From: Nautilus pompilius
Lineage: Eukaryota > Mollusca > Cephalopoda > Nautilida > Nautilidae
Length of the DNA stretch: 64,000 bases
Reading direction: 5' to 3'
Assembly (NCBI GenBank): GCA_018389105.1
Contig: JACATO010001095.1
Location: forward strand, 372,001-436,000
The notes under the pieces are model-generated. The model saw only the letters and a program-made list of their open reading frames with translations, was not told the DNA's origin and did not search any database. Shown piece after piece: positions 28,401-57,800 of the stretch (position 1 is the stretch's first letter; every line of letters begins with the position of its first letter). The position numbers and the translations under genes were made by a program.

Positions 28401-31400
28401 TTTATAGGAGGAACAAGTTCAACAGGCAAAGAAGAATTGGATGAATAAGATAGATGCACCAAGAGAGACATCGATGATTCCTTCAATAGCGTAAATACTA
28501 TTACATATTATTACTGTGTTATTTGAAACAACAATTTAAAAAGTAACTTATCTCGCCAAAGAAGATACTCATCAAAGTGCATTTAAGAATGTAGTTCTGT
28601 AGCAGTGTAATTGTTCAAACAGTATGTGGAGAAAGGGCTTGGAAATGATGGCTTTTTTTTTTACCTATTCAGAACGTAGTTATAACTTTACAAAATTTAT
28701 TTTTGTTTTTCATACTTACAATAATTTAACAAAGAAACAATATTACATGTATTAACTTTAATGGAAATTGGTATAAGTTATTCATTGTCACCTATTTGAT
28801 GCTAATTTAGTAGACCAGTGTTTTTATTTTTTGCTAAATTTCAAATGTTTCTATAATGAATGCTATTCTGCTAGGGTATAACCTTTCCCCTAATTAGAAA
28901 CTTTCTATTAGTTATGTTTGCACCACAGAGAAAAGGTAGTAGATAAATCTAGCTTTTTACGGTATCTCTTCCAAATGTGTTTGTTTTTTTAGCAAATACG
29001 CTGCTATTGTCATTATATGCATGATATTTGGACTCTCTTTGCTCTGACATTCTTGTTTAAATTTTAACATATTAAGTTCAACCGGTCATACTGTACAAAG
29101 CTTAGAAAGCATTATTTTAATAATATCTCTTACTGAAGTTAAAATCTCTACTATGAGCAGTTTATTACATATAAATATTTATTAACAATGCCAACATGGA
29201 GACGTCAGTAACAGTTATTTTATTTTTGTTGTAATATAGGCGTCGAAATTTGTCTTTTGGTGTTTTTGATACGTCATAATATAGAAATTACGTTCATTTG
29301 TAGATCATCATCTCTGCCTGAAGCTCTTCCAATGGAAAAGATTGCTGCCATCAAAGCTAAACGTTTAGCCAAGAAAAGAACTATGATTAAAGGAGATGAT
29401 GATATTGCACCTGGAACTGATGATCAAAGAACATTTGTAGATGCAGAGGTTGATGTAACGAGAGACATTGTCAGTAGAGAGAGGTTATGGCGAACACGCA
29501 CAACTATACTACAAAGTTCTGGCAAGGTAGATCCTTCTGAAGAGTGTTTGTTTTTTTATTATTTAAATAAATAAAATTTGAATGTATATGCAAAGCCTTA
29601 TTTTACTGTACATGTTTGACTGTCTAAGTATTGCTTCATTAATGAAAACTTGGAAGCTGACTTTTTGACATAATGCATTACTATGCTCTAATTTTAATAA
29701 ATGGTATTAAAATTTAAAATTTTCAAAAAAAAGAGAAGGTTCTGTTTTAAACTCTGAAAGAAAGAAGGCTTCTTTTTGTATTATTTCAATATCATTTTAC
29801 TTTGCTGATCAAAGTTTTTTTCTCTTTCACTCAGGAATTTGCTAAGAATATTTTCAGCATTCTACAATCAATCAAAGCAAGAGAAGAAGGCAACCAGCGA
29901 CAGCTTATTCAGACACAAAACACACCGATATCTTCTGTAAGTAAAGAATGCAGAAATTGGAACTAAACTGTTCTAACTCATTTCTTAGTTCTTCCCACAC
30001 CATCACATTGTTGTTGACTATCTTCTGTTTGTTGGTAGAGTGTAGTTGTGAAGAAACGATTGTGTATAGTATTACATTTTTATTTAACAGAGTCAGAGTC
30101 GGCCACCACCAGTAGCTGGATACAACAGGTATGATCAAGAAAGATTTAGAGGAAAAGAAGGTGAGTAGTTATCTGGTGAACAAGAGTTTAAATTATTTAG
30201 TTAAGATATGCCATCTAAGTTAACATTTCTGTCTTATTTTATGTTAAATTACATTAAATATCCCAAATTGTACTGTTTAGTTTACCCACCTTTATGCGTA
30301 AACAAACCATAACCATGGCATTTAGGTCATAATTTATAGAAAAGAAACTGGTTACAATTTTGTGTTTGTTGTTAAATATAATTTACTGAAAGAAAAAAAT
30401 TTTCAGAATGAAGGACCAGTAAGGCAATTTATGAAAATTTAGTATTTATGTAACTTCCATTTGGACAAATGTTCATGTTACTTATACTTAATAGGACCTT
30501 TAATTTAATAACATCTGTTGTTGAAATAACACTAAGAATATTTATGAGAATGACACCTATTTAGAACCACTATTCTTCAGTATGGAGATTTTTTTGTTGT
30601 CTCAAAGAGGCAAAGATGTTTAGTTTTATTGGTTTGCATTCTCTTGAAGTTTTACCAATCCCAAAAAAATTTAGCATAAACTTTTGCTACTGAATTTTAA
30701 GTTTTATTGATCCGAAGGAAGAGTTACAACTAGATGGATAGCATGAAGCATGTGGACTAAAAGATATATCGTTTTGCATTGTGTGAGGAATTGTGTAGTG
30801 CTGTACAATGCCAAGGTATATTATTTCAGAGAGGTGATGGTTATTTTGTTTTGTGTATTCCCTTTTGAGTAATAGTAAAAGTTTATACTTGATCTTTTGA
30901 TCATGCTTGAGTTTTTGAGCACCATTTTGGTTTCCAGAACTTTCTTTTCTACCCAAATGTTTACCTTTTGTTAATAGCGGTCAATGTTATACATTAAGTT
31001 GAGTATAAGAATAAGTTATTAAACCTGATAAGGTTATTTTTCAATCTAGATGGTCTGAAGAAATTATTGGAGTAAGATTTGGAAAATCTTAAATTGTTTT
31101 ATTCTGGACATTTGTTTTCCTTGGGTATATAAATTTATAGTAAGCTACAATTTTATTTGATTTGGCAAGGATTTAAAATTTGAACTTAAAATGTTATGTT
31201 TACTGATGCATATTTGATATGATTTGTGTGTGAATTTGTGAATAATAATATATGGTGAATTTTTTTTATTTCATGACTTTTACAGATTTCGTCATGCACT
31301 CATTGAGAGTTATGTCTTGTTCTTGTTTTTAGAAACGGAAGGTTTCAAGATTGATACAATGGGTACCTATCATGGCATGACACTGAAGTCTGTGACTGAG

Positions 31401-34400
31401 GGAGCTATAGCCAGGAAGACTCAAGTTCCAACTCATCATCCTCAGCCTCAAAATGCCATTCAAACAAGACCACTTTCTCAAGCTAGGCCTCCTCCCACTC
31501 AAAAAAAGGTATGCATAACTTTACAGTTTTTTTTTTTTTTATTACTTGAAAACTCTGTTACTCTGTTGTGTGGCTGAGTGACAGGAGCTTGTAATCTTAT
31601 TTGAATCTGTCAGAAAATTATCCTTTTATTTTTTTATAGCAGTGTTTTTTTTGCTTTTGTGAACTTTTGCTCTAATGTTGATACTAATTTGATTAAAGTT
31701 ATGAATTAAATTTTAAAGGATCTGTTAGATCTGTGTTATCTTAATAACAGAAAATGTGCTTTGGTTTACTGAAAAGGAAAAAGAAATCTTTTTGATTTTT
31801 TTATAAAATTGAAAAGTTTGTGTTCACATTAGCTCTAGGGCAGTGCTACTCAAAGTGGTGGTACGCGGACCGGTGTCAGTACGCGAGTCATTGGCTGCCG
31901 GTCCACGCCGAGTTTCCAGAAAAGAAAGAAACACTAGTATAATTTAACAGTAGCGCTTCCAGGGGAAGAGCCAGTGGGCCCGGGCCCGCCACTAAGGCCA
32001 AGTATCCCTCAACAAATTTACAGTGTATGGCAGCTACATGAGAATAGATGTTATTATGAAGGCTGCATAGGTCATTTGTTCCACGGGGTATTCGTATTAT
32101 CATATAACATGTAATAACAAAGTTGTATTGATACTAGGGTGGCCAGACATCTGGCTTTTGAGCGTTTTGTCCTCCGTCCGGCGACACCTTGAGCCAGACA
32201 TTAATTTGTCCTCCTTTTTGTAGTCTGACTAAAAATAATTATATACATTTCCTTAGGTACACTTAAAACAGCGGGAACTGAAGTCCATAATAACTATTAA
32301 CATATTTAACCTAATTTATTCATTATAATTTTTCATTTTATTACTTATATATACGTGTTTATAATATCTTTGTTAGAAGGCTTTGCTAGTTTGATTTTTT
32401 AATATTTTTTTATTTATATTGTAATATTGTATTACTTGTATACAAAATAAAAAGTGTGTCAACTTTTATTATATTCATTATATTTTTCCGGTATAAATTA
32501 ATATTACTATGAATGTTCAAATAATATTTTCTTGGATCGTAAACAAACAATAATATGGCACAAATATAGTACCGGTCCATGGCACATTGGAAAAAAAACC
32601 TGCCGGTCTGCCACATCAGATGGTTTGAGAAGCACTGCTCTAGGGTGTTTCTAACTCTGATTGTGAGTATGATGTACCTAGAATGTTGTGAAAATTAGAA
32701 GTCATACATATTGCAAAATACGAGGTCTATTGAGAAAGTATCCGACCTTAGGCTGGGAAAAAAAAATTACGTGCTTGGTGGGGTTCAATTGCTAATCCCC
32801 TTCAAAGGAGGCCCTTTGTGCCTCCACACACTTCGCCCAGCGATCCTTCCACTGTTTGAAGCACATCTGGAATGCTTCTTCCAGAATGGCTCTCAGCTCC
32901 GCTGTCGCATTCTGTACGTTGTCTTCTCGGCTCTCAAAGTGGGAGCCTTTCAGTGGCATCTTCATTTTTGGGAACAACCAGAAGTCAGAAGGAGCCATGT
33001 CTGGAGAGTAGGGAGCCTGGCAAATGAGCGAAATGCCTTTCTTTGCAAAGAAACCTTGGATCAGCTGCGACGAATGAGCCGGGGTGTTGTCATGATGCAG
33101 CTGCCAGTTTTGCGAGGCCCACAGATCCAGTCTCTTGCACCAAACTGCATCACGAAGACGTTGGAGGACTTCCTGATAGTACTTCTTTGTAACTGTTTGT
33201 CCTTCTGGTGCGTATTCGTGATGCACAATGCCTTAGTAGTTGAAGAAAAGTCAGCATCACTTGATTTTGCTCCGGTCTTGGTGACGTTGGGTGCTTCCAC
33301 TGTGATGACTGAGCTTTGGCTTCCGGGTCGTACCTGTACACCCACGACTCATCTCCAGTTATCACGGTATTCTGGAACTCAGGATCCCTGTTGCCAGTAT
33401 CCAGCAGGTCTTGCGCAACCTCAAAACGAAGTTGTTGTTCCTGAGAAAGCAGCTTGGGCACAAATTTCACTGCCACTCTGCGCAAGCCCAAATCCTCCTC
33501 TAAAATTGCATGTGCAGAATCTTTAGTGATCCCAACCTCATCACCAATTTCACGCACCGTCAAACAACGATCCTCCATTATCAAGGTCCGCACTTTCTCG
33601 ATAACAATTGCGTTGCAGCTTGTTGACGGTCTCCCGAACACTGGTCACTCTCCTCCAATGTGCGGCCATCTTTGAACCTGTTGTACCATTCTTTAATTTG
33701 TGTAACACCCATGGCATTGTCACCAAAAGCCTGTTGAATTTTGCAGATTGTTTCCGCTTGGATATCTCCAAGCTTTTGGCAAATCTTGATGCAAGATTGT
33801 TGCTCCACGCGTTCCATCATCACAGGCGAAATGAAAATGCAACAAGTAGTACAGCACTTGACATGCTGGCTGCCTGACAGTGATGAAGACATGTGGCTCC
33901 ACTATGCACACTTTTGCCTCCCTAACGTCATTACTTCCCACGGGAAAAAATAAAGTAGGATACTTTTTCGACAAACCTCGTACACATTTTCCTATTTGGC
34001 TTATCATAATTATATAATTCAACTTGATGTCAACTGTTTTTAGCTAGTACTATTAACTAGCAGTAGTAGTAGCCTAGTCAGCTGATATGTTCATCCATAC
34101 ATATTATTTGGACTTTTAACTCATTAAAACTTATTGTTCAGTTGGACACACACACGGTTACCACAAGTTTCACTGTTCAAATGTTTTGTAAACTATTTTA
34201 CTCCTTAGCTGATTGAAGAAAAAATCCAGTAATAATAGTGGTCAGCTGTAATATATTTGGGATTAAAGGTAAAAGTGATTGTTGTTCTGTACATATAATA
34301 TTTTATCACTTTTATTTGTAAAATAGTAGTTTTTTGTTTGTTCGTTTGTTTTAAAATTACATGACAAACTGAGAAAGTTTAAAAAAAAAAACTTTTTTTT

Positions 34401-37400
34401 TTCTGTAATAATTTATTGGTAGGAGTTAGGAGTAGAAGAATGCTTATATTCAAATTGAAGTTCTTTTTTTTATGAAATGGTAGCCAAACATTGTAAGTCT
34501 TCAAGCATTAATTTTTGTTAATCATTTTTATGTGGTGATATTAAGATTTCTACTGTTGAAAAATTTGTCATCTTTAGATTGGCAAGTATCATGGTTGGTT
34601 GTGTAATGTGAGCAGTTAAGATGGGTATATAATGACTGATTTATGGTGTTTTGAAACTTGAAATGAGAGGGTGGTGATGTTTACTTTTTTTATATTATTA
34701 CAGTGCAAGAAACCAAATTTATTGAAATGTCTTTTCTTTAAGTACAATAAATTATGAACTTAATGTTAACAGTAATTAAAATAGTGTATTTGGATTTTCA
34801 GGTTCAAGAACTCCAATAATAATAATTCCAGCTGCATCTACCTCTCTCATCACTATGTATAATTCTAAAGATATTTTGCAAGATCTTAGGTATGTAAATG
34901 TATTTTTTTTTGCCATGCTGCTATTACTTACTTTGTAGTTTTTACAACATTAAATATTTAAAATTAAATAAGGAAGTGTGGTTTTAGTGAATGACTACAA
35001 TTTTTCCTTTTTTCTAAAATTAGCAACTGGATGATTTTTATTATTTCTCTCTCTCATGCATGGAATTAAGTAGAAATCTGTTGGTGAGAGTTGTATACAA
35101 TTGCATTGCATTGCTCACATTTTGCTGAAGATCAAATATTATAAATTCTATGCTTCAAAACCATAAAAGTAATCACAAAAACAAAAAAGCAATTAAGGGA
35201 GCTGAAACTGCTATTACACTACACAACACTACATACTTGCCAACTTTCCAAAATTTTCATGGGGGAGACTGTCAATCTGAGTCGCAAAGCACTGGAAAAT
35301 GTAAACAAAGAACAAAGAAAATGTAAACACTCATGATTATCTGTCTCTAAATTTCCATATGGTCACAATTGTCAAATGCAATCAGTCATGCTCTGACTCA
35401 TGTTCAAGTGTTAATTTTTTATTGTAGGTAACACAGGGTGACTTTGCTGTTTTCAAAGTTGTCCTACTTGGTTTGTAGGCATGACAGTCCTCTGTTCTAT
35501 AAAAGAAATGCATTTACATGTCAACATTGCATCCAGGGTTGAATTTTCAAGAAGAGACCTGTGATGCAACTTGGAGTGTCTGCAGTGGGAAACAAGCTTG
35601 CGGAGTGGCGGGTGGCTATAGGGTCAAATGGCGGACGGCGATAGTGTGAGCCATGCACAACAGGGCAATGGGTTTGCTGATTTCTGATTGATCAAAATAT
35701 GAAACTTGCGAAATGTTGACTATGGGTGATGGAAAATCGGGTTGTTTTCACATTTTATAGGGAGGGTTTTAAAAATCGGGAGAAAATGGGTCTTTTTTAC
35801 AAAAAGGCGGGAGGGCAGGAGATTAATTAAATCGGGAGAATCCCACCAAAATCGGGAGAGTTGGCAAGTGCGACACTACTACATCCAAAAGGCCTACCTC
35901 TTTTCTCTTACATTCAGTACATTTACTACAGTGAAGGGACCTACCTACATTCTGCTCTTAAATCTACTACACTACACTACTTCAAAGGACTTTTCAATTT
36001 AAGGAGTGAACTTGTATTTTGCAATGTTGTATCAGATGTTTTGTCCTGTTTAACTATTTAGATATCCTCTTTTAAGTTGAATTCCTTTTAAGGATGTTCT
36101 CGAACACTTTAGATCACAAAATTAAACATGTTAAATTCCACATTACTAGCCTAATTTTGTTATTAGAAAGAATGTGTTACATGTAAAAGAAAATTAAAAT
36201 TATTTCAGTAAAATCTTGCTGTTCAGTTTTGAATGAGTTGGTAAATGGTTCAGCTGTAAAAAAAAGAAAGAAAAAACTAATAATTAGTGTGGTTTGCCTG
36301 ATTTCTAGATTCATTAGTACTGAAGATAAGAAAGCTCAAGGGACAAAGCGTGACAATGAAGTTTTAATTCAGAGGAGGAAAGAAGGTGGCTTAACTGTAC
36401 CTTACCGCATCATTGACAACCCTTCCAAACTACAAGCAGAAGATTGGTCAGTGATCCTCTTTTTTTATTACTTAACACTAGCTTTTTTGTTAATTTCAGA
36501 ATTGTGTGAAATAAGTTTTCTTTTTTTGGTGGATATTTAGCTATTTAAAAAAAAGTTGTCATTTTAAACTACAAAAAAAATTTTTGAGAAAAATCAGCTT
36601 TGAGTGATTAATTCTGTTGATTCATAACTCATATATTAGTATTAAAAATATATTTTTTGGTTTATAAATAGAAACCTATTTTATGAATATTGTTGAAAGT
36701 CTATCCTCCTCATCCAGAGCTTTTTCTTTTCTTATAAGCTGAAATTTTGTTTATATATGAACTTCAAGTTAGTTATAGATAGCAAACTTGAAAGGGATCG
36801 TTTAACTTCAGTTAAAATGAGACTAAATTATTTTTGCTGACACTTGTCTAAATTGTGAATTAAATAATTTTTTACGGTAACTTGCATTTAGTTTCTGCAA
36901 ATGAGCAAACAAAGACTGATAAATAAGTTACATTTCTGATAACTATGCAACAGAATTTTTCATTTGAGTATGGTCATATTTCTGAAATAAGTAACAGTAA
37001 ACAGTTTTGTACAACTGCATTGCGTTTTAAAAATTCATTTTTAATTTTCCTTCACCACCAGGGATCGTGTTGTGGCTGTGTTTGTGCAGGGGCCAGCCTG
37101 GCAGTTCAAAGGGTGGCCTTGGGATGGGAATCCAGTTGAAATATTTGAAAAAAGTATGTAAATTAGGTTTAATCCTCATTCAATGAAATGTATGACAATA
37201 CACTGTTGTCCTTGCTTTTGTTTGTTGAATAATGAGCTGTTATTTGGGGGATTATTATGTTATTTCTTTGTCTTTCAGTTAAAGCATACCATGTAAAATG
37301 GTCAGAACTTCCATTAGACAGCAATATTAAAAAATGGTCAGTGCACGTGATTAACTTGGACAGGAACAAACGCCATTTAGATCGGGCTAATTTGCAACAG

Positions 37401-40553: not shown

Positions 40554-43431
40554 TATGTGCTTCCAAGGTTTAGGAGCCCATGCTTGTTAAACCTTAGAAA
40601 AGCGTATTTACAGGATTACTCTGTTAGGGTCACTGCCCATAAATATGTGGGCATACTCAAACAGTTAAATAAGGTCTCTGCACAGCATTTTCAAGATTTG
40701 GTTGAATTATTGATGGTGCTTTGCTACAGAACTCACTGCAATATCTGTAACTGAGTTAGTACTTTTTGTCACAAGTAGAATGATGTGTTGTGTGTGTTTT
40801 CAGTGTCTAGATACTGAATTATTTATCTTGTTCATGGAAGTAGCAAACCTTTCTGGTTATACAAAGAATTTATCTGAAATAGTTTGCTATTTGCATTTAA
40901 TGCATTTCTTGTTAGCTAATCCTAAATCTGATTTTTCATAATCACCATTGTCTGACATTTTTTAAGTACTCAAAAATGTTCAACAGTTTACTATGTACTG
41001 AGGCAGCCAGCTAAATATGACCAGTAAGGGGTCACCTTCCATAATGGTTGAATTTAAAGCTAAATTTAATGGTTAAGAGGCCATTTATAAGTAAAGTAAA
41101 GTTGCAACAAAAAAAAAAATGTACTTTTATTGCTGTTTTGAGAATTTCTTCGTTTTTTGATTTCTAAAGTTTTTGGTTTTTTTTTCATGTTTTAAAAAAA
41201 AGAAATCTGAATATTTAAAAAATTGTTTTAAAAAGGAAGTTAGATTTTTAGATTTAAGAAAAACCATCTTGTTAAAAGTGCTCTTTAATGAATTTGAATT
41301 TAGATTTTATATGCTTTTGTAGTTTCTTTACTTTTTAAAAATTGCCATGATGTGAACCTGAATTCTTTTTTTTTTTTCATAATGAACTGGTCTTAAGAGG
41401 AGATGCTGAATGTATCTAGCTTCACTTATGAAGCATTTGAGATTTTGTGTAGCTAAACTGGAGGCATTTGGTGCTGCATGTAAACTTATGATGCAGATAG
41501 CTGTTTGTAGGTCTGTTTAGGATTAACTGAAAAATCTTTTTAATCAGATCTCAATAACAAATAACAGCATTTTCTTAGAAAATCTCAAGATAAACATCTA
41601 ATATTTACAAAAATATTTTGAAGATAAGGCAAGCTACAGTTGTTTGTTTTTTATTTATTCATTTGTGTGCCAAATGTTATTTAAGTCCATATAGTATAAC
41701 CAGTGATGCAGAAAACCAATTTCCTTTTCTCGCGTAAAAAAGACAAATGCCAGATACTGGTGTGTTTATTAATGATCTATCTTGAAGGGAAGCAGTGATG
41801 CTAATATTAAAAGCCTCATGATGCACAAAATTTTTAAACTTAACATTTTACATGTTCTGCCTGCCCACTCTGAAAATAGGTTCATTTTTTGTTTTTGTTA
41901 GGAAATTTATTTAAATAAATTGCTAATGCTAATCATTAGAATATCAATCAGCTACATTTTCAAGCCTGGGGATTTATGCATGTAAGACAAATGCATCTAC
42001 TTTTGTAATTTTCTTTTCAACTTGTGTTACTATGAAATCCATTTTGCCCATTAAAGTAAAATCATTTCTTGATTGACCACAATAGTTTATATACCATTTC
42101 TTTCTGTGAAGAAAACTTAATTGCTTTCTTTTTTAGCAGAGAAAGTATCCTATGTACAGCTTAAAATTATATAAAACCCATGTCCAGTACATGAAAGTTG
42201 TATAATATAATAAATTTCTGGGTACAGCGATTTTTGTGCACAAAAGACAATAGTAGGATAATTTTTGTGGTTTAAAAATTAAAAATTATGCAAAATACTG
42301 ATTTAGATCATATTTTTTTCTTGTTTGTTGATCATTAATTCTAGATCCAAATAAACATGCCAAGGATGCTATTTTGGAAATCGACTGAAGCATTATTTCC
42401 GCTTTTCTCAACTGTTTAGTTTAGCAGCATCTTTCAAATGGGAGCAGTTGTCTCATTTCAATGCTTAGGAAATCTCAGGAACCAGAGAATAGATGCCCAC
42501 AAATGCGCTGTAGCTGAGAAGCCAGGTGCCTTTTAAAAATATATATATACATTTCAGACACAATACCTTGCTGTATCACTGGTAACATGATCAGAGAGAG
42601 ATTGTGGCTGATATTCTATGGGAGGTTCATTCAAATGAAACATGGCTGAAAATAAAATAGCTGTAGTTGTATCTGGCCGGGTTTCATATAGATGATTGCT
42701 GGATGGAAAACACATTGTGGTTGATAAATTGCTCCGCATGCAGATTAAACTTATCTACTTGTACATGGTTATATAAATGTGACCGCAATGTAAATAAAAG
42801 GAGCACATAATTTAAATTGTTGAAAGAAACCTGACAAAGGCAAGCATTACCTGTCTCTCAACAGTAATACTATGTTTGCTACATGCAACTAACAAAATGT
42901 TTGAGAATTCTAGCATTTAGCTTCATCCTGATGCTTTTTAAATTTCTGACTGGCAAAAACTATTTTAAATATTTTGTTACAAGAAAAGATTTTTAAAACA
43001 ACCGACATGTGTAAATAATTTTTAGTCAAATTTTATTTTTTCTCAGGCAGTCAAACATTTTAATGCTCTTTGAATGAATATCGAAAATATTTTAGAAATA
43101 TATTTTTAACCTATGAATTAAATATTTATCCATAAATGCAATTAATGTAAGAAAAAATATGCTTGGTTAGCTTTACAATACGTATATTTGTTTGTTTTGT
43201 TTGAAAAGAACTCTTTAATTTGTATAAACATATAAAAGCTGGATAAATTTCGTGGCATGATTTTTTTGTTAAATAAGCATTAATAATACTTCATAAAAGT
43301 ATTCTGAATTTTAAAAGGAAGTATTCTGTTTCTAATAAGATTTAGTATATTATAATCCTGTACAGTGGAAGATAAGAAAGTTTTAGTTGCGCCCCTTTAA
43401 TAAACACTCTTTATCGTAAAAGTTATACATC

Positions 43432-46400
43432 ATGGCAGACATGGATAATATAGATAAGTGGATTGAAATTGCGAAAGAATGCAAATATTTGCCAGAAAAC
43501 GACTTAAAAGTAATGTACATTCGTCTTAAGGAACTTTTATAATATCTTTTTTTAAATAACTTTTGATTGTCACTCAGTGAAATAAGTGTGTATTGGTAGC
43601 ATGGTTTATGAGACGAGACGGAGACGACAGAATGGTGGATGAGTTTATACAATTATAATTAAATGGAAACTTTTTATTTCATTTGTTAGCTTTATTTTTT
43701 CGTTGATTATTTTCTCTTTTCTTCGTTTTTACTTGGATGTTACGAATATTAGTAGTTAAGGGATGTATTTTAATTTTGTTTGTGTTGGGGTCCAATAGAG
43801 AAAACTAGGCGTGTAATATAAAAACAACCGATACTAGAAATAAGGACTGAAAAGTTTGTCCTCTATGAACAAGAGTTGTACCCCACCTTTTAAGTTCTAA
43901 GATAAGCATGCCTAGACTTCTCTTTTTTTCTTCTTTTTTAATGGTTGATCATTTGAAACATGGTTAGGTTAACTGTTTGCTAGTATCAGTATGTGTTTGA
44001 ATAGGCAGAATGCGTAATGGCAATATGACTAGGATGACTAAGTAAGAGAGTTGATCGGAAAGAAGATTGCCCTCTGAAGTATGTATTTCTATCAAAACGT
44101 TTGGACTTCTGACATTTAAGATAGTTTATTTTTTAAAAATTATTATTAATAATTAAAGGCTTTACGCACGTAGACAGTAACTATTTATTTTCGCTATCTA
44201 CAGTTAATGATTCAAGAGATCATAATTAAAAGTTGGCAAACATTTCAAATCGGCTGTATATTAGAAAACTCTTTTTTTTTGGTCTAGTTACAGAATTACA
44301 GATGGATAGAATAAATTAATGGCAAACGAGTTGATAGTGATGGTATAAGTCAATTAAAAAATTGTGTTGATAAATATTTTTTTGGGGGGGTCTTTCAGAA
44401 GTCGTGTTAACTACTTGTTTCCATTGTAACTGCTAAACTAAAGTAAACATGAAGAGAACATTTTATTCACTTTTCTGGGAAGTTGACTCAGGAAATTAAT
44501 CAACATTATTTTTATCCTAGCACATTTACTTTTAATTTTTCAGAACTTTGTGACATGGTATGTGAATTACTTCTGGAGGAAAGTAACGTTCAACCCGTGT
44601 CCACTCCAGTCACAGTTTGCGGTGATATTCATGGCCAGGTATATTTATACTACTATGTCTGTTCTTGTCTGTTTAGTCTGGTTTTGAGTTTTCACAGTAA
44701 AATTGTGTTGTGACATTTGTGATGTCTCAAGAATGTTTGATAGAGATTCAATAAACTAGGAAAAGGTAGAGTGAAATCTGTGCATATGCAGATTGTATGT
44801 GTGTGCACCTGTTTGTAAGTTGAAAAGGTGAACTATGGTTATAATAGTTTCCCTAATTATTGGTATATCTACACTTTTTTTGATTTTTATCTCAAACAAA
44901 AGGAGAAAGAAAGATAAAAGTACTTGTCATGCTGTTCAATTTATTTGCATCTTTCATGGATGGAAGATGATGATCATATATTTTTCACTAATACAGCCAT
45001 AGATATATTAAATGTAAATTACACTTTAGTTGTATTTTTTAACACCTAATCACTGTATTTATTGAAATGTTTGCGTTCAGTTTTAATTACAACTTTGACA
45101 AAAATTTTGTGTTTTTTTAAAAATACTTTGCCAAAGTAGAAGACTGTCTTGATTGGTTGTTTTATTCAGCAATTTCCATCAAAGGGAGACTGGTTAGCTT
45201 CCTACTGCAAGTAACCTGGACTTGTCTTGGATATTTGGACTCATTGACTCAGAGAATAAACACTTTGCCCTAAGTTTCTCCACTGGTGGTAGTAAATGGG
45301 AAAAGATAATTTTAATCTATTTTATTTTTATATAAATTCAATCCAGTACTGCATAATACACCAAAACTCCTGGTGCTTTCATGATCTCACCATCTATTTT
45401 GATATTTTATTTTTTTTAGTTATTGCAACCTTGACTTTGACTTTGACTTTGCAACCAATGCAAGATGAAAAAGTGTCTAACATTTTTGAAAAATTCATTA
45501 GAGTTTTTTGATAATGCATTTTTATTGTTGATGTTTTTTTTAAAGAGAAGATAAATAATTTTACTATACAAAGACTTGACATAAGTAAATAGATGCCTTC
45601 TGAGACCCAAATAGGCCAATCTAGTCACATGATTGCAAGCTTTAATAAAGATACAGGTCAGAGAAAGTCTCTGCAGATAACCATGCCATGAACAGGAAGT
45701 ACATGGGAAATGATGGACTTTGAAAAGAGGTGTATAGTTGGGCACTGGAACATTTGTAGAAGTAAAGTAGGTACTGGATATTGTCAACTGTTAACAGGAT
45801 GATTGTCCAATTAAGGAGAAGCCATAAGGAAACTGTTTTTGTATATCCTGGACACTTAAAGTTAATAGAACGGGATGTTTGTACTGTGGAAGAGCATGGA
45901 AACCAGACCTTGACAGTCAGCTGCAAATGTGGCAGAACATGCAGGTTTCCACAAGAATCACCAGATGTTATCTCCACAACATGAGGTATTACAAGAGTGG
46001 TGAGATGCAAACCACCATAGCCTCCTAATTTTTGAAACAGTAATTTTTTTCTGATTAGTCGAGATTTTTACATTTCTCAGACAGTGGCTGTGTATGGGTG
46101 TGGCACTGTCCAGGATAGGAATGTTTTTTTAACCATCTTCAAGCCTTGTCAAAATATGGTGGTCTGTCTGTCATGAACCCCAGTGTCTATGTTTGGGATA
46201 TTCTCAACCAACTCTTGCAAAAATGTACCCATAAACCCACTTATATGGACTCTCTAATATGAATTCTGTACCATGAATTCGCCACAATTCTGCAGACTAG
46301 GATTGCTGATCTTGTCCACACAATGTCAGTGTTTTGCTGTCTGCAACACAAAGTATTAACCCCACTCATATTTTGCCAGTGCTATGTATAGTTCCAAGAT

Positions 46401-49400
46401 AAATAGACAATCTTTCAAACTTGAGTGTCTATTTATTTATATCAAATTTCTGTATTCCACAAATAAACTGCATTCTTATCTAAATGACAATGAAAGCCCC
46501 TATGACTTTATTACAAAATGTCTGAGTATCTGTTTTAGCATTTTTACAATATCTGCTCTATGTTGTTATGGGCATGAATGTTGGTGTAGTTGAAAATTTT
46601 TTTTTTTCTATTTAAAACCTGGAACTTAAACAGAAAATTGTTTGATTACTAAAAGTTGTAATGACGTTGAAAAGTTTTCTTCCTGGGAAAGATGGCCTGT
46701 TAGCTAAAAAAAATATATATATACAAGTTATATAAGTTTTTGTTATACTGTGTATAAATTTAATGCCTACAATACGTAAGTGAACATCTAATTTCATACC
46801 TATGAAAGTTGTATTATAACCAGAGTTGTTTTTTTTTTTTTTTTTTTTGTTAAAGTTTTGTAACTGGTGTAAAAAAAAAAATTGTGTAATACGTAAAACA
46901 GATTTCAGATTGAATTATACATTGATGAAAACAAAGTCCATCCAATGTTTATATAAAGGTAAATTAGTCAGAAAAAAAAAGGACTTGATTTTTGTCTGTA
47001 CTTTCAATTCCAAATAAAACTACTGTATATTACGGAAACCGTGTAATTTTAATACTGTTTTTGTGCTTTAAAAGATCCTGTTATAGGAATAAAAACTGAT
47101 GATTACTGTTATTTAGGGATTGACAATAAAGCCGTTCAAACTAAGAGTTATCTCCCATTAACTTTGAGAGAATGTGGCAGTTATGAGAGAGAATCATATA
47201 ATGTGTATAGGTAACTGAACATTATGGATAAAAGCAGGTAGTTATAGTAAGCTTGGTATTTATAAAGAAAACCACCAGAGAAAATTTATATAAGCAAATG
47301 TTTTTTTCTAATAAAAAAAATGGTTGAAGTATTCTAGTAGCAACTTGTTGCTAATCCAAAAATATCTATGGAGATGTCTTTGTTTACTGTTTCATGCAGT
47401 TCAAAACATGATGCATGAAACATTGTCTGCATATGTTGCTCTTTCTGGTCCTATGAATGGACAGAAAATTTTAGCTTATTGTTTTGATTTGGGAAATACA
47501 AGGAAACTTGGATGTCTAAAGAAAACCCACATTTATTTTATTTAAAATGTAAATTTGGATTAAGTTGATGAAAATATTTTATTTTTGAAAAAGCAAAATA
47601 TTGGAATGATCAAGTTAAAAAGATTGTTTTTTTTTCAACTTCAGTCAGTAATTGAAGACAGCTCATGACTTTTCAGTGATTACTGCTTCTGTATGAAAAG
47701 ATGTCAGGGTTTCTTGCACATCAGTAGAAGAAAGTGTCACAGGATAACAAAAAATATCTTGTTAGCATAATTCTAGAACAAAGATGGGAAAAGCATGTAA
47801 TAAAATATTTTATTTACCAATCTATGCAAAACAATTGGATACAATTAACTTCCAACAGACAGAAGAATGGAGGATGCTGAGAGGCGTGGCTGCCTGAAAC
47901 AAAAAAGCACTGACTGGATATGAAGACACTGGGAGGCTCAAATTGGTCTCAGTCATTAGATGAACTGTGGAAGAGGGTAGTGAAACATCAACTAACCAAC
48001 TACAGTGATTTTTTTAGTAATGAACCAATATTAGCAAATACATAAATATACAGGATGTCATGGACTGATAAAGTGTGATGGTAGGTTTTGCTGCATTGTT
48101 TGGAAGCTCAAGATATGCAAAACAGTTTTAAAACATTTATTTGTTAAATCAAAGTTGCCTAATTAAAGTTTTTTTTCAGCCAAGTAGATGACTCCATATA
48201 TACAAATCAAGAAAGCAAATTTTTTTACCTTTAGCAAAAAAAAAGATAAACTTGAGTTTATAGATGGGCTGCTATAAAAAAAATCATGTCAGCATTGTTA
48301 CAGTAAACTTCTGTGCAGGTGAAAGCTAAAATGTAGTAGTCATTTTTTTAGGTTGGACATCTAAAAGTACTGGACTGTTAGCCACAGATTTGCTTTATTG
48401 TCATAAAGTATAATACAAAATCATTTTTGCCTTTTTTTAGAAAGCTAAAGTCAAAATCAGTCTCTTTTTTCTTATTACAGTTCTACGATTTGATGGAACT
48501 GTTCAGGACTGGTGGGCAGATGCCAATGACAAATTATGTGTTTATGGTAAGTGTATTGCTTTTTTGTATATTATTAGCAAAGGATTTGACATTTATCAAT
48601 AAATACAGAAAACATCTTGGCATAGTCAAGTCTAGGGAAGCAAAGTTTTCTTTCAAAGACTGGATTAAAGTTTGAAAAATGGATTGTCATTGCTAAATGT
48701 TTTAAAGAAATAAGTAAAAAGAATAGAGTGAGTCAAATTTTACATAAATAATTCCTTACAAGTTTGCTGAATATGCAAAAAATACTGGCAGTTTTCTCCT
48801 TAAATATTCATCAAAATTGAATAATTCTCTAATTTTAAGATAATGCTTTACATGTGAATGCAGTCCCTTAGAAATTTTGCATATTTTTTGCCTATTTTGT
48901 AGTTTAAGATATTTTTTTTAATTTTTGGATTTTGCAAATGGTCAATCTGGACATCCAGAACTTACAAAATAATACAGATGATATTATTTGAAATGCTATA
49001 ATCAGCATATATTCCAAATTTGAGAACATTTAGATTAAAAACAAGAAATGTATGGGTGCCAGAAAGTGAGGAAATACAATATTTGGATTTAAAAGTGCAC
49101 CAGAAAATGCAGATGACATGGTGCCACTGAATCCAAACTTTCTCCATTGATGTCTATTGTCTCTATTCTACTATATCAACTGAATCAGGTATGTACCTAA
49201 AAGTCAAGAAATATTTATAAAAATTCTTTTTTCCAAGCACACAAGGCTGTCTAAGCAATTTTTAGTGTATTGGAATGATATGATATCTTTCCCCAATCTC
49301 ATTATCTCCCTTTTATCTGTTATTTAAACAAAAGAAATGTATTTATCTTATGTAGAATTGAAGTCGTGTAAATGTCTAAGACATTTATCTTGTGGTATAA

Positions 49401-52400
49401 GAAATAAAAACAACAAAATGCATGTACATGCGCACAAAACCTGTGGCCATAATTATGGACTTACCAATGAAATATAGCTTATATACTCAAATTATTACTG
49501 CATATATTTACATGCTTATTAGTATAAGAAAATTTTTTTCAGGGAAATATCCTTAATGTTTGATGAATTATTGGTCGTTCCACAATCATGACTATCCATA
49601 CGTATCTACACAAACAATGAAATTTATTTGAAAGAGAATTACCTGTTGAAGTGTATGATCTGCAGTTTAACTAAATCTCTTCTGCAGTGGTATTAATGTA
49701 CCCATCACAGGTCAGCCTAGATTCATTAATGTAGCATGAGTGTGTAGTTTGCCCGCTTGCTCTGTTATCTTTCCAGTCTGCAGTTATTTTCTTTGGGTCA
49801 TAGTTAATCGTAAATCACCAGTTTCTCCATATATCAGTATTATCTGTGTACAATGCAAAAAATATCCTGTTGCATCACACACCCTGTGGCATCTTGTATT
49901 ATTGATTTGTTTATTATTATTATTTTAATAATAATTTGTGTTTCATTTCTTTAAAACTTGATTGTTGTTATTTTTTAAAATTCTCTAGGGCGACTTTGTT
50001 GACAGAGGCTACTATAGTTTGGAGACATTTACTCTCTTGCTGACACTCAAGGCCAAGTGAGTTCTTTGGTTATTTTAATGATTTGTGAACTGAAGGATCT
50101 ATTGAAGAAATCATTGATCCATTAAAAAAAAATCTATTACTACATCTGATCAAATGTTAAATCTTTTTTTTTTTAAAATGTGTTATACTTAGGTATTAAT
50201 TAGTTTGTGATAAAACTGAAATCTTGGAGGTAGTTACAAATCCTGAAACTCGTAATACAATTTGCAACTTGATGAAAACAAAATTCCTGTTGATTTAGCG
50301 TGTTGTTGGCTATAGTTTGACAGAACGCTGTAGTCATAGTTATTGTTGCTATGTTTTTTGAAATATGACTTAAAATTTCTAGGTGGCCAGACAAGATTGT
50401 GTTGCTCAGAGGTAACCATGAAAGCCGTCAGATTACTCAGATTTATGGATTTTATGGTAAGATGGTGCTTCATAATTTGGACTGTTCATCTCTTTGTTAT
50501 GAATTTATTATTTTTGTTTGGTTCATTGACTTTACAACCGTGATGCTCATAGGGATTCTGTACTAAATAGTGTAGTGGACTGGCAACCAAACAGTAAGAT
50601 AGTAGGGAACTTCAATGAATGCACCTTTGCAATAGTATTCTAATAATGCATAATTGATAAATCAGAAACTAAACCAATGCTGAAACACTGCATTAGTTGG
50701 GGGGTATAATTACATTTAAACAACAAAAAAATCAGATTATTTCAAGAGATGCAATCATTTTAGTCATAATTTTTAAACTTATTAGCGAATAAGAAGTAAA
50801 AACTTATAAATCCTTTTTTTCTTAACTCTAACAATAATCCACCCATCACATTCACATACATGCTAATAGAGTTTCTTCTTGAAATAAAAAATAGATGGGG
50901 AAAACTGGCTTATTATTTTAAAATTTGAAATTCTTTATCAGACCGACTACCTGACAAAAAATTGAGAGAATTTCTTAGTCCACAATGTACACAGATTTAA
51001 GAGGTTATGTCATGTGATTTATTGTACCTATGTATTAATATATAAGCTGTGTGAGAGTAGTTCATTAACAGGTATAGGAAGGATATCAATGGTGACTTCA
51101 CAATGTGTGTGTGTGTGACCATGTTTAAGAAGCTAGTGGTTCACTTTGACCAGTTTGTTCTTGAGGACAGTCTACACTGGTGTATGTACAGTTTTTTTCA
51201 GAAAACCACCTGTTGACATTACAACCCTGCTGATAAATGTAAAATATGTGACAGCTACAATAATCCATATCACTGAAAACTTTAACATTGGAGGACAATT
51301 TTCAATGCATTGGGAGCAACACAGATGCCATGAGCAGACCCTTCCTCGTGATTTTGGTGGCTCTTTCTTTCATCTTTTGTATAACAGATTTGTATTCTCT
51401 AAAATCACTAACCTTCTATTGATTTAGTGAGGAGCAACAGGTGAAGAACTCAGATATTTACAATGTGTCCATACTGAATATGTTAGTCTGAGCTTACTTT
51501 ATTTTAAAAAGAAAAGTCTATAAAGGCTTATCACTGTGGCACAGTTGAATGTGTTGTTAAAAGAAATATATGTTAAAAAAGGGGGAGTAAAGATTTTCCT
51601 TCATTTTTCAGTTTGTAAAACCAATTACCATGCTTTGCATGAATTAAGATTTTCTGTTAGAATTTTAAATATTAATCAGTTTATTTATATTACGTGGTTT
51701 TAATTATTGAAAGATATGTTTAAAGCATAACACTTTTCTTGAGAATTACTTTGTGAAAAACAAAACTGGTTAGTGTCTCTAGATACTGTAGACAGCTAAC
51801 GCTGACTTTAGCGCACATGGGTTAGCAACTGATGATTTCCGGTTCAAATCCCAGCATCAGCATTCGTTTCTTGAGATACTGAAAACACACATACAACACA
51901 TCATTCTACCTGTGACTAAAAGTACTGTTACAGATACTGCAGTGAGTTCTGCAGCAAAACACCTAGAACTGGGTAGATAATAAAATATTTTTGGATTTGC
52001 TTATTTTATGGGTCTACTACTACAAAATATGCAAATATGGGTGTGAAACTAAACAAAAAAGGAAAATAAGAAGGATTGAGTTTCTGCCTCCAAAATAAAC
52101 TTGCTTACAGTCATAGTTTATTTTTTATTTTTCAGATGAATGCCAAACCAAGTATGGAAATGCCAATGCTTGGCGATATTGTTGTAAAGTGTTTGACTTG
52201 CTCACAATAGCTGCTGTAAGTTTGAAGTTGAATGCTGTTACCATGCAGACTCTCTTTTTTTAAGTTTTTTTTGGCTGCTTGGACTATAAGTTAGTTGGTT
52301 AGTATCCTAGCCTAGTGGAGCCATTGACCATAACTGCTATATTGTGGCTTGGTAGAAATCTAGAAAGTACTACCAAGTGAGTTTTTATTTAGCTGGTAGG

Positions 52401-54835
52401 TCATAGAAGTCAATCAGTCTCAGTCTCTCATGTGCAGAGGTAATATTATTGATGTTCAGTAATTTGTGTATTGTTTTAATGGTGTATTGTGTTCTGTTTG
52501 AAAGCATATACTCAGATGTTTTAAGCCTAAGATTTGATCATCAAATATAACTTTTAGAAAATTTCTGCTGCCTGAATATGAGAAAGAACCTCCTGGTGAA
52601 CACCTGCAAGAAAGCCATGCAGTTAAAGGTGGAGAAGAGAAGTTGCTATCAATATAATTATCTCACTGATTCTAGCTATGTAGAATATGAGTTAAACTTT
52701 TTGTGGAAAAATCTATGAAATGTAAGCTTTCTTGTCCTTTTAGGGTGATCTTTTAAAAGTTATGTAGGTTTGCTGATTTGTTTGTAGTATTCGAACGTAA
52801 TGCTTTATAGGAAAGTCAGACAGATTAACTTCAGATATCTGCAGGTATGCAAATACTGTGTTATGGATTACTTCCAATATGGTTTAGTGTAAATATTGCT
52901 TGTTTGAATATTGTCAGAAAGTTGGTCTCTAAGTCGTTTAGTGTGGTTCTTCATTTGTAATAAACGAAAGAAGCCTGTATTTGTTTCTCTTTCAGATAAT
53001 TGATGAATGTATCCTCTGTGTACATGGAGGCTTGTCACCTGACATCAAAACCATTGACCAGATTAGAACCATTGAAAGAAATCAAGAAATTCCTCATAAA
53101 GGTGCTTTTTGTGATATCCTTTACTTTACAGAATGATCGTCTGTTATATAGAACCAACAGGGTGGGAGTTTGTATTGTAGAAAAAGGTGTACATTACAGA
53201 CTGGCAATCAATAAATATTGTTTTGAAAATGCTGTTTGTGAGTTGTAGAAACTAAGGGATTACTATGGACAAACTAGATATGCTGGATGTAATGTAAAAA
53301 AAAAAAAGCTTGTTGCTATTTTGTTTTGTGGGAATTCAGGGTGTGGAAGAAGGAAGAGCGAACTGAGTTTTGCAAATGTCATCACAGATTTTGTTTACTG
53401 TTCTGTTTTTTATTTTGTTGTTTTGAAATCAATGTTTCTTTAACCCTTGCTACACCTTGTATGGTCAGATCCAGAGGATGTAGAGACCTGGACCATTAGC
53501 CCTCGAGGGGCAGGGTGGCTGTTTGGACCTTACGTCACTAATGAGGTATTGTGCTGTTGCCCTCTCACCTTTGGTGCAGGTTTATTGCTGCTGTTTTACT
53601 GTACCCTGTTTTATGTATATCACAGCTTTGTGTTCACAGATTCTGGTTTTCATTTCAGTTTGTCCTTATAAATAATTTGAAACTCATCTGTCGTGCTCAC
53701 CAGCTGGTTCACGAGGGTGAGTTACACTTTACTGAACTTTCTTTCACTGTGGAAAATAATCAATGAATGAATATTCACAATGCTCCCCCCCCCCTAACTG
53801 ACTGAGGACCAGTTTAATTGCAAATACATTTTCTCTCATGACATGGAAAGGCTCAGTTATTGGGTTTGAGTCATCAACCTTTTGTAGTGATGTTGATTAT
53901 TTAAGAAAGATATCTCTGAAGTGGGGGGGGGAGAGAGAAAGAAAATCTGTCTCACTGTTTAAAAAATACAATTATATTTAAGTGATTCTTTGAAGAATCA
54001 CAAGATTATTCAGAGTAATAGAGAAAATTTTAAAGTGTTGGTATTCCTTTTACCATAGGTGGGTTTTTGATTACTATTGTTAGGTTTAATTCTGAAAATG
54101 ACTTGATTTGGATTTTCAGAATTTTTTTAAAAAGTCCTGTTACTGTTGTGTGTTAATATTATTATGAATACCAAATTTGGGTGACCCCTCATTACTTGCT
54201 GGCCAAAAGCGTATTTGAAATTTTGTCAGAGACAAACATCTTACCTTTGTTACTGCTGCTTGTACGTTTTCACAAAATGATCCTATTTCTATCATCACCC
54301 TGTCAAAAAAAACGTTTTATCAGATAGGAAAATTGATTGAAAATGGTGTTTAGTTATATAAAAAAACAAAAACAATCACCCTAAAAGGAATTATACTTGC
54401 GTCTCATATCTATTTCAATTGCTTAAGACAAATAGCATTTAAGAATGTGAAAAAAAAGTTTTTTTTTTTAAAATTTGTTGAACCAGCTGACAAAGTTGTG
54501 TTCAAGGGGAGACAATTTTCAAATTAAAAAAAATTGCTTAATTTTTGGTGTGGATAATTGAGAGGCTTAGATGTAAGTTACAGCCTGTCTGTGTTCGCGT
54601 TCAGAAATGTTTTCTTTGTTACAGTTTCTATAATTTGTTTTCAGGATACAAGTACATGTTTGACGAGAAGTTGGTTACTGTGTGGTCCGCTCCCAACTAC
54701 TGCTACAGATGTGGAAACATCGCCGCTGTTCTCTCATTTACAGATTCCGAACATAAGGAAGCTAAGTTGTTTCGAGCCGTTCCAGACAATGAGAGAGTCA
54801 TTCCTACCCGATCCACCACACCGTACTTTCTTTAG
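43432..54835 (+). CDS. PPP6C: Ser/Thr protein phosphatase 6 catalytic subunit
   Basis: Ten exons: 43432-43509, 44544-44638, 48481-48546, 49989-50056, 50383-50456, 52136-52215, 52996-53113, 53454-53545, 53659-53716 and 54645-54835. The product is a PP2A-family metallophosphatase acting with SAPS and ankyrin subunits in cell cycle and signalling control. Metal-site and catalytic motifs are complete: [41 protein letters not shown] and [11 protein letters not shown]; the C-terminus TPYFL ends in the leucine that is methylated in PP2A-like enzymes. All introns are GT-AG except intron 7, which is AT-AC. The exons sum to 920 bp, one short of 307 codons: the exon 1/2 join needs one more base, giving NDLK-KLCDMVC instead of a shift. 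With it the length is 306 residues (human 305). Confidence 0.97.
44639..48480. other. PPP6C intron 2
   Basis: A 3.8-kb intron. It holds a probable Tc1-like relic near 46.1-46.4 kb and a poly-T run at about 46827-46849. Other short ORFs have no recognisable features. Confidence 0.5.
46080..46370 (+). mobile_element. Possible Tc1-like transposase relic
   Basis: Translating from about 46166, [13 protein letters not shown] resembles the NPIEHVWD block after the third catalytic residue of Tc1 transposases. After an in-frame TGA it continues [18 protein letters not shown] and [10 protein letters not shown], like the C-terminal helices. It is heavily decayed, and no inverted ends were found. Confidence 0.35.
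51790..51880 (+). repeat. tRNA-derived SINE head in PPP6C intron 5
   Basis: GGTTCAAATCC (51841-51851) fits the pol III B box consensus exactly. A degenerate A box (TAGCGCACATGG) lies about 30 bp upstream, as in a tRNA-like promoter. No clean cloverleaf forms, so I read it as a SINE head rather than a tRNA gene. Confidence 0.45.
53114..53453 (+). other. AT-AC U12-type intron (PPP6C intron 7)
   Basis: The intron begins ATATCCTTT, matching the U12 donor ATATCCTT exactly, and ends with AC (TGCTAC). TTCTTTAAC (53436-53444) matches the U12 branch consensus TTCCTTAAC at eight of nine positions, and its branch A is 10 nt from the 3' end, within the usual range. Using these borders gives the conserved [12 protein letters not shown] reading. 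The best GT-AG alternative (donor GTGATA at 53111, acceptor CAG near 53468) would delete the conserved CDLVWSD block. Retention of this intron meets a stop seven codons into it. Confidence 0.9.
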
Positions 54836-57800
54836 ATAAGCTTTACCAAACTTCGCTACAATAGAGTGGCAAGCAAGGAATCATTTCAGAATGATCTTGC
54901 TGTTAAACTGCAACAAGGTCACAACTACTACTGGTATGGATGACTTCTCTATGTATGGTGAAGTCGAAGACTGTGTGAAATCCACACAGCAATATTCGAA
55001 CTTAGAGCTCTCTTTCAGGAAGGCCACATGAAAAGAAGCAACGATACACTTGTTTGATAGAGAAAATATATTCTATATAAGGTGAATGACTCCTAAAATT
55101 TTCAAATAAAAAAAAAAAAAACAAACCTACGTTTTATTTTTTTAAATAGTTTCTAAAACAAAAATAGCTGTGTACTCAACTTGTTTTAAGCAGCCGAATA
55201 GCATGTATATTTGATATATAATTAAAATTTTTTAAGTGTTAACTTCCCCCTTTTTTACGTAACTATTTAAGAATAAAATAAAGAATCATCTAAAGGCACT
55301 GAACATTGGCTGCTTGTGAACTTTAAAACACTGCTGTCAACTGTCAGATGACTATGGGCTCTGCTTTTGTGTGTACATTAAAATAGTTTTAGAATATTGC
55401 ATACAAACAAAACTTATTGGTATAACAAAAATATGATAGTTATGTAAATATGTTTTTGTTTTTGTGTGTGTGTGTGTGAAATATAAATGTGTGTTGAAAA
55501 TGTCATCGATAAAGTGAAATTGAAAACTTTTTATACCTTGGAATTTAAACACTAGAGTAATGGCTATACTGAAATATGTATTTTGTATTATCTGAAACTT
55601 GTAATTACCTTCATCGTTGATAAATATGAAACCAAAAGGTAATTAGGAAGTCTGATCAGTGTTGTATTCCTCAGAACCTTCATTTTTTGTTTTGTAATGA
55701 ATTTAAAATAATCTATTTTTAAGATGTTTATTCTATGAAAGTTAGAATTTAAACCCATGGTACTGTACTAATAAAAAGGGGAAGTAACTCTTACCATTTT
55801 AAGATTTAATGATATATCTACGACAATTAACAAGTGTATGGATATACGATACTGAAAACAATTGCAGACTTCTGTATCCGAAATTTATAGTGTGTCATCT
55901 GTTTAAAAAAAAAAAAGTGTGCTCATTTATAAACATGCCAAATGTTATTAAGATGGTTTAAGAGAATATTTGATGACTAGAATCAGTAGGACAGGAAAAG
56001 GTGAATGTTTTTTTTTTTATATTGCTAGACTCTCTTTTTTTTTTTTAAACTTTACACACCCATTTTGTTTGTTTAATTATTTCTTTAAAATAAAATGAAT
56101 TAGAAAAAGTTATCTGTATTCTGTTTGTTTACCTTATTCTGACCAATTTATTTGTATTGGTGATGTCTATCTGTGATTCCTTTGTCCTTGTTCTAAGGTA
56201 GAGGAAATTAAAGATAATAAATATAAACATTCAAAGAGTTCTTTTTTAAAAAAATGTTGCTTTTATTATAAACTTCATTAAGAACTGTTTTGCCACATCA
56301 AGTGAAAATGGTTTCTTTAAAAGATTGTCATCTAATTAACTGATACATTAAAAGAAACTTATCAGAAAGTAAAAACCAGGGTATTTTGAGTTGTGCGCAA
56401 CCAAACTGATATTTTCATCTATTAATCATGCTGTTTTGTTGTTTTTAAGGTTTCTTTTAGAAGTAAACAAAACCATTTATTCGTTCATCTTTGGCAGGCT
56501 TCTTTCTACATGTTATACAAATCATGCAGTCTACAGTATTATCTGGAAAAGGCCTATTTTGTTTTAATTTTTATTTACAGCTCTAATCATGGAAATATGC
56601 CTGGTTGCTTAGTTTCTTTATTATCTACTTGCTTTTTGAATAAAATTACTTCCATGAAACTAAAAGTCTAAGGTTGCTACACTGGTTATCTTTAGAGTTA
56701 AATTTTTGGATCTCTCATTTTCACTTTGTATATCTTACATGTAGCATTCAAAGATAAGAATGATATTGATTCTTTGTCATAGCACAGGTTTTTAAAACCG
56801 TAATGCATAAAAAATGATTGTAGCTAAACTCTGATATGGAATTTCCGTTTGCATTTAGCAATAATAAATTCTTTACTTTTAGAAATAAATATTGGATTAT
56901 AGATTAAATTAATAACAGCTAACTTTAGAGGTGGTTAAAAGTTATTAGACTAGATGGTAACAAACAACACTAAAATTAAGAGAGAAACTTCTAGGAATGT
57001 TTTTAATTTATTTTTATTTAACTTAAACTTTTTTTACAGAATTAGCACAGTCTATAGCTAATTGATATTTATGAAGACTTTCCTTAATGTTTAAAATTAT
57101 TAAGGGCTTTGAATGAGTAGATAGATCTTAATACCGTTATCAAATAATGAAACTGCAGGAAGGCATGATTAAAATTAACTGAATAGCTGGCAAAGCTTTA
57201 TATCAAAATATGCCTTAAATAGAACTGGAATTACCACTAATGGTTGATATTAGCGATGTCAGTCAGTCAAAAAAAAAAATGTTTAATGCCAATTTAAAAA
57301 TTTCTTTACCCTGCAGGTATTTTTGAGGCATGACAGGTTCCTGTCTCCTTGTATTAGCTCAACTATTGCGTTGTCTCTTCCCTGGAGCAGTTTGTGTGCT
57401 GGAGTATTGCATCATCTCTCCAGAGCGAGAAACAAAAGATTCTGCTGCTGAACTTTTAAAACTCCAGCAGAGAGAGAACCTGAAAGTCGCTGCATTGCTG
57501 AAAAACAGCAAGCATGTCAACATTAGAAGACAAAACTAATGGCTTTGTTATTTTTTTTTACAATTATATATATTTTTAACTTAAATATGCTTGCAATACA
57601 ATTTCTTTGTTTTTGTAGCAGAGCAGAATCAATTTTGTAACTAGACTAAACTTCAACTAGTATCGAAAAGTAAGTAAATGAATCTTGTTGATTCTTAATA
57701 TGAGTTATCTCCCTTAGTTGGCTAGTTCCGGTTCCTCGTTATAACTATATATTTAATTTTTAATTTAAAAAAATTAAATCAAAGTCATTTGCTTGAAGTT

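Follow-up and report, generated by a model that had tools for sequence, protein, structure and literature searches.

The question raised by this locus is whether PPP6C, the gene of the PP6 catalytic subunit, contains in Nautilus pompilius an intron of the AT-AC subtype that is removed by the minor spliceosome. The window, which means the whole stretch of 64,000 nucleotides that was analysed, was examined together with the genome assembly; the whole-genome searches comprised 727,640,739 bases in 2558 contigs, and their match counts are lower bounds.

Gene model and neighbourhood of PPP6C

Ten coding exons of PPP6C were located on the forward strand (43432 to 54835; Table 1). GT-AG termini were present in eight of the nine introns, the exception being intron 7.

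Table 1. Coordinates of the PPP6C exons and of intron 7 with its signals in the window
Feature	Position	Strand	Basis
Exon 1, from ATG	43432..43509	+	tblastn with human PPP6C; borders read
Exon 2	44544..44638	+	tblastn, borders, splice test
Exon 3	48481..48546	+	tblastn, borders, splice test
Exon 4	49989..50056	+	tblastn, borders, splice test
Exon 5	50383..50456	+	tblastn, borders, splice test
Exon 6	52136..52215	+	tblastn, borders, splice test
Exon 7, ends in phase 1 (TGT G)	52996..53113	+	tblastn, splice test
Intron 7, U12-type AT-AC (predicted), 340 nt, phase 1	53114..53453	+	sequence, splice test, motif scoring
U12-type 5' splice site ATATCCTTT, 9/9	53114..53122	+	motif scan and scoring
TGA ending the frame upon retention of intron 7	53134..53136	+	translation; position counted on the sequence
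U12-type branch site TTCTTTAAC, 8/9; branch A 53443 by consensus	53436..53444	+	motif scan and scoring
Exon 8, starts AC CTT GTA TGG	53454..53545	+	tblastn, splice test
Exon 9	53659..53716	+	tblastn, splice test
Exon 10, including stop codon	54645..54835	+	tblastn, splice test

Splicing of exons 2 to 10 yielded an open frame of 279 residues, 243 of which (87%) are identical to the human PPP6C sequence used for comparison, and the product showed a match to Metallophos (E 2.5e-43). Compared with the stretch of exons 7 and 8, the PP4-like exon found in this genome is 70% identical. The best PDB match of the product was PP2A, and none was named PP6 among the best 60 of 92 matches. Judged by the Metallophos match and the two identity values, the gene appears to encode a PPP-family catalytic domain that resembles PP6 more than either PP4 or PP2A. 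Since the exon 7-8 stretch was matched only once in the genome, the PPP6C gene of the window is the only copy found.

Other features were observed in the window. A PSMD5-like gene (10673-16988, forward strand) with two Proteasom_PSMB matches and a CDC73-like gene (29212-36540, forward strand) with a CDC73_N match and a CDC73_C match below the curated cut-off were both named by reading; a piece of the latter (31242-31574) gave no Pfam match. Broken frames of a mariner-like transposase were recognised by eye on the reverse strand (32792-33901), and Pfam gave nothing at E 0.001 for the one piece tested. Also on the reverse strand (13197-14711), three open stretches that measure 101-206 codons look like the protein of a mobile or orphan element; the two that were tested had no Pfam match. 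At 51795-51865, a tRNA-like B box (GGTTCAAATCC) looks by eye like a tRNA-derived SINE, and ARAGORN detected no tRNA in the 64-kb window.

Borders and signals of intron 7

The terminal dinucleotides of intron 7 are AT and AC, with TAC as the last three nucleotides. For scoring, RTATCCTTT served as consensus of the U12-type donor and TTCCTTRAY as consensus of the branch site. The branch site TTCTTTAAC differs from TTCCTTAAC at one position (C to T, which corresponds to a G-U pair with U12), its adenosine lies 10 nt before the end of the intron (53453), and no long pyrimidine tract is found behind it. With the same scoring, the other eight introns of PPP6C reached at most 6/9 for the donor and at most 7/9 for the branch site. 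Intron 7 interrupts the Asp codon of FCD/LVW behind the first base, and its removal would join TGTG and ACCTTG. The coordinates, the start with ATATCCTTT, the branch motif with its A 10 nt from the end, the AC end and phase 1, as given in a preliminary description of this DNA, were all reproduced. According to a published survey, minor introns show a bias against phase 0, and about 26% of those in human belong to the AT-AC subtype (PMC10639083).

Donor and branch motifs are unremarkable by themselves. RTATCCTTT was found three times in the 64-kb window (1.94 expected), with the other ATATCCTTT sites at 17450 on the forward and 40142 on the reverse strand, and TTCYTTRAY was found eight times (13.37 expected). 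What is improbable is their location at an exon border that is fixed by the reading frame. In simulations with an order-1 Markov sequence trained on positions 52000-55500 (400,000 draws each), a 9/9 donor at any of the three allowed shifts occurred with P ~4e-5, and a branch motif that agrees with TTCCTTRAY by 8/9 or better, at a distance of 8-21 nt from the end, with P ~0.010. The combined value for both signals (P ~4e-7) is a rough one, being the product of two simulated rates obtained with general consensus motifs.

The conserved 10-residue peptide around FCD/LVW was preserved by three of 14,000 border pairs, which correspond to shifts of 0, +1 and +2. AT-AC termini occur at shifts 0 and +2, and the full 9/9 donor only at shift 0. 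The earlier claim that only the borders of intron 7 keep this peptide was thus too strict, because the shifts +1 and +2 keep it as well, but 53114/53453 is the sole pair with a full donor. As the shifted pairs yield an identical peptide, it is the donor consensus that decides on the exact cut.

On this basis, intron 7 of PPP6C is almost certainly an AT-AC intron of the U12 type, which would be removed by the minor spliceosome. From established knowledge of such introns, splicing is expected to occur at the borders 53114/53453.

Alternative readings of the intron and of the gene copy

The region might instead be a dead copy or an assembly artefact that carries an intron without selection. This would be in line with the junction between the end of exon 1 at 43509 and the start of exon 2 at 44544, which is 1 nt out of frame under GT-AG borders, and with a decayed duplicate on another contig that covers the 5' region of PPP6C in part and contains introns (43196-46015 of the window versus C1544:266735-273677; L022, L024, L025). 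The duplicate was recovered by blastn in five pieces with 67-79% identity, and both exon 1 and intron 7 were absent from the matched pieces. It has one extra base between its CAG and TTTG, which points to a one-base slip or a real indel at the exon 1-2 junction. An assembly slip is the likely cause of the frame break, with a real indel as the alternative, and intron 7 is untouched by this problem. Against a dead copy stand, besides the likelier assembly slip, the 279 open codons of exons 2 to 10 with 87% identity to the human protein used for comparison and the single exon 7-8 match in the genome. A dead copy is very improbable indeed, and this reading was set aside as the gene is the only PPP6C found and is otherwise open.

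Non-canonical AT-AC ends are also known from U2-type introns, as in some sodium channel genes, and intron 7 could belong to these. U2-type AT-AC introns exist, but those of the sodium channel genes possess a G at +5 according to PMC2831892, whereas intron 7 has a C at this position. The complete U12 donor (9/9), the presence of a U12-type branch site only 10 nt before the intron end and the lack of a long pyrimidine tract behind it also speak against a U2-type intron. This assignment is almost certainly incorrect and was set aside on account of the C at +5. A twintron-like arrangement would involve an additional U2-type pair at 53102-53468 (AAG/GTGCTT ... GGTCAG/AT), the use of which would result in a protein that is nine residues shorter and devoid of GAFCDLVWS. 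This pair is in frame (270 versus 279 codons); AT-AC twintrons are known from prospero and PRMT1 (PMC3564746), and cryptic major sites become active when CENATAC is lost (PMC8280824). The in-frame status is unremarkable, since 62 in-frame GT-AG, GC-AG or AT-AC pairs occur in the stretch, the U12 pair included. Furthermore, GTGCTT was judged by eye as a weak U2 donor with neither A at +4 nor G at +5, and the loss of the nine residues would affect a conserved block of the catalytic domain. A twintron is therefore highly unlikely, and it was set aside because of the weak donor and the many in-frame pairs.

Minor-spliceosome components, proposed splicing and known minor introns

If intron 7 is a U12-type intron, the components for its removal should be encoded in the genome. 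All four minor snRNAs, whose genes the preliminary description had proposed to confirm, were detected in the whole genome with at least one match each above the Rfam cut-off, namely U12 (121.5 bits), U6atac (107.3 bits), U11 (83.3 bits) and U4atac (60.8 bits, cut-off 53). CENATAC/CCDC84 (PF14968) yielded at least three matches above the cut-off on one contig. In 14 control genomes, the searches for U12, U6atac, U11, U4atac and CENATAC gave zero matches, and the Rfam scan of the 64-kb window gave none either. In human cells, CENATAC is required mainly by AT-AN minor introns, as stated in PMC8280824.

The snRNAs of this genome can also pair with the signals of intron 7. AAAGGGT of U11 can pair with ATCCTTT, TAAGGAAA of U12 with TTTCTTTA and AAAGGA of U6atac with TCCTTT (6 nt), each over a contiguous stretch, and U4atac can pair with U6atac. 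The longest contiguous match of U6atac to intron 7 was an unexpected one of 7 nt (GTGTTGC with GTGATAT) and not the expected helix. Pairing is therefore supportive, not discriminating alone.

From these data, the following route may be proposed. ATATCCTTT would be recognised by U11 and TTCTTTAAC by U12, and U6atac, brought with U4atac, would take over the donor from U11. The minor spliceosome, in which CENATAC would favour the AT-AN subtype, would join TGTG to ACCTTG, and the Asp of FCDLVW would be restored. As an annotation case the intron is clear-cut: a gene finder restricted to GT-AG would miss this catalytic-domain junction or model it wrongly.

If intron 7 is retained, the translated frame reads DILYFTE and then stops, upstream of the last three exons. 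The stop within seven codons that had been described earlier agrees with this, seven codons being counted from the Asp before the TGA. Transcripts that keep intron 7 would reach this stop and would presumably be degraded by nonsense-mediated decay. PP6 is a phosphatase of Aurora A. Intron 7 might be a conserved control point for the PP6 catalytic subunit that limits its rate of production and is sensitive to CENATAC, so that the capacity of minor splicing sets the PP6 dose and links it to chromosome segregation. This is very unlikely, and a rate-limiting effect on the PP6 catalytic subunit is speculative. If the regulatory reading were true, minor splicing would be linked to a mitotic phosphatase.

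In the same genome, PHB2 served as the one control gene examined and was located with the human PHB2 sequence. It contains an AT-AC U12-like intron (C36:73212-73476) that extends from ATATCCTT to TTAACTGACTGAC and ends with CCTTAACTGACTGAC, so at least one AT-AC intron with U12-type signals is present elsewhere in the genome. The earlier suggestion that intron 7 belongs to a lineage with U12 splicing is corroborated by the four snRNA matches, the CENATAC exons and the intron of PHB2. U11, U12, U4atac and U6atac are thus retained in this lineage, as is CENATAC, the factor for AT-AN introns.

Paralogues were searched with a 70-residue query from exons 7 and 8, which gave six matches. Two of these were PPP6C, and the four others were assigned by reading to three genes. 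No intron occurs at the FCD/LVW codon in these PP4-, PP1- and PP2A-like matches: the PP4-like (L009) and PP1-like (L011) sequences read through the codon, and in the PP2A-like one (L012/L013) an intron is located earlier, at VPHE/GPM. Among the paralogues found, intron 7 is therefore specific to PPP6C, whether by gain in PPP6C or by loss in the paralogues.

A U12-type or minor intron of PPP6C was not found in the paper texts searched, to which the supplementary intron lists did not belong. In the available portions of five papers on minor introns (PMC10639083, PMC3564746, PMC2831892, PMC8280824, PMC7367187) the word "phosphatase" does not occur, and both "phosphatase" and "PpV" are absent from that of PMC7644725. 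As lists of minor introns are placed in supplementary tables, this silence is no evidence that the PPP6C intron is new to the literature. A U12-type AT-AC intron may well be present in human PPP6C, too.

Compared with known systems, the twintrons of prospero and PRMT1 likewise have in-frame GT-AG pairs on both sides of an AT-AC intron of the U12 type, but the GT-AG pair at intron 7 looks weak and is no more notable than many others. With the CENATAC-dependent A-type (AT-AN) minor introns, intron 7 shares the AT-AC termini and the U12-type donor, and CENATAC exons are present in the genome; the dependence itself was described for human cells (PMC8280824). A likeness is also offered by PHB2, for which a U12 AT-AC intron is listed in fly and human (PMC2831892). 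This published intron (in fly, intron 3 of l(2)03709), which the PHB2 gene of the present genome shows as well, has, like that of PPP6C, an ATATCC donor, an AC end and a short distance from branch site to end, but it is situated in another gene and at another position. The AT-AC intron of PPP6C is a clear and ordinary example of an already known intron type.
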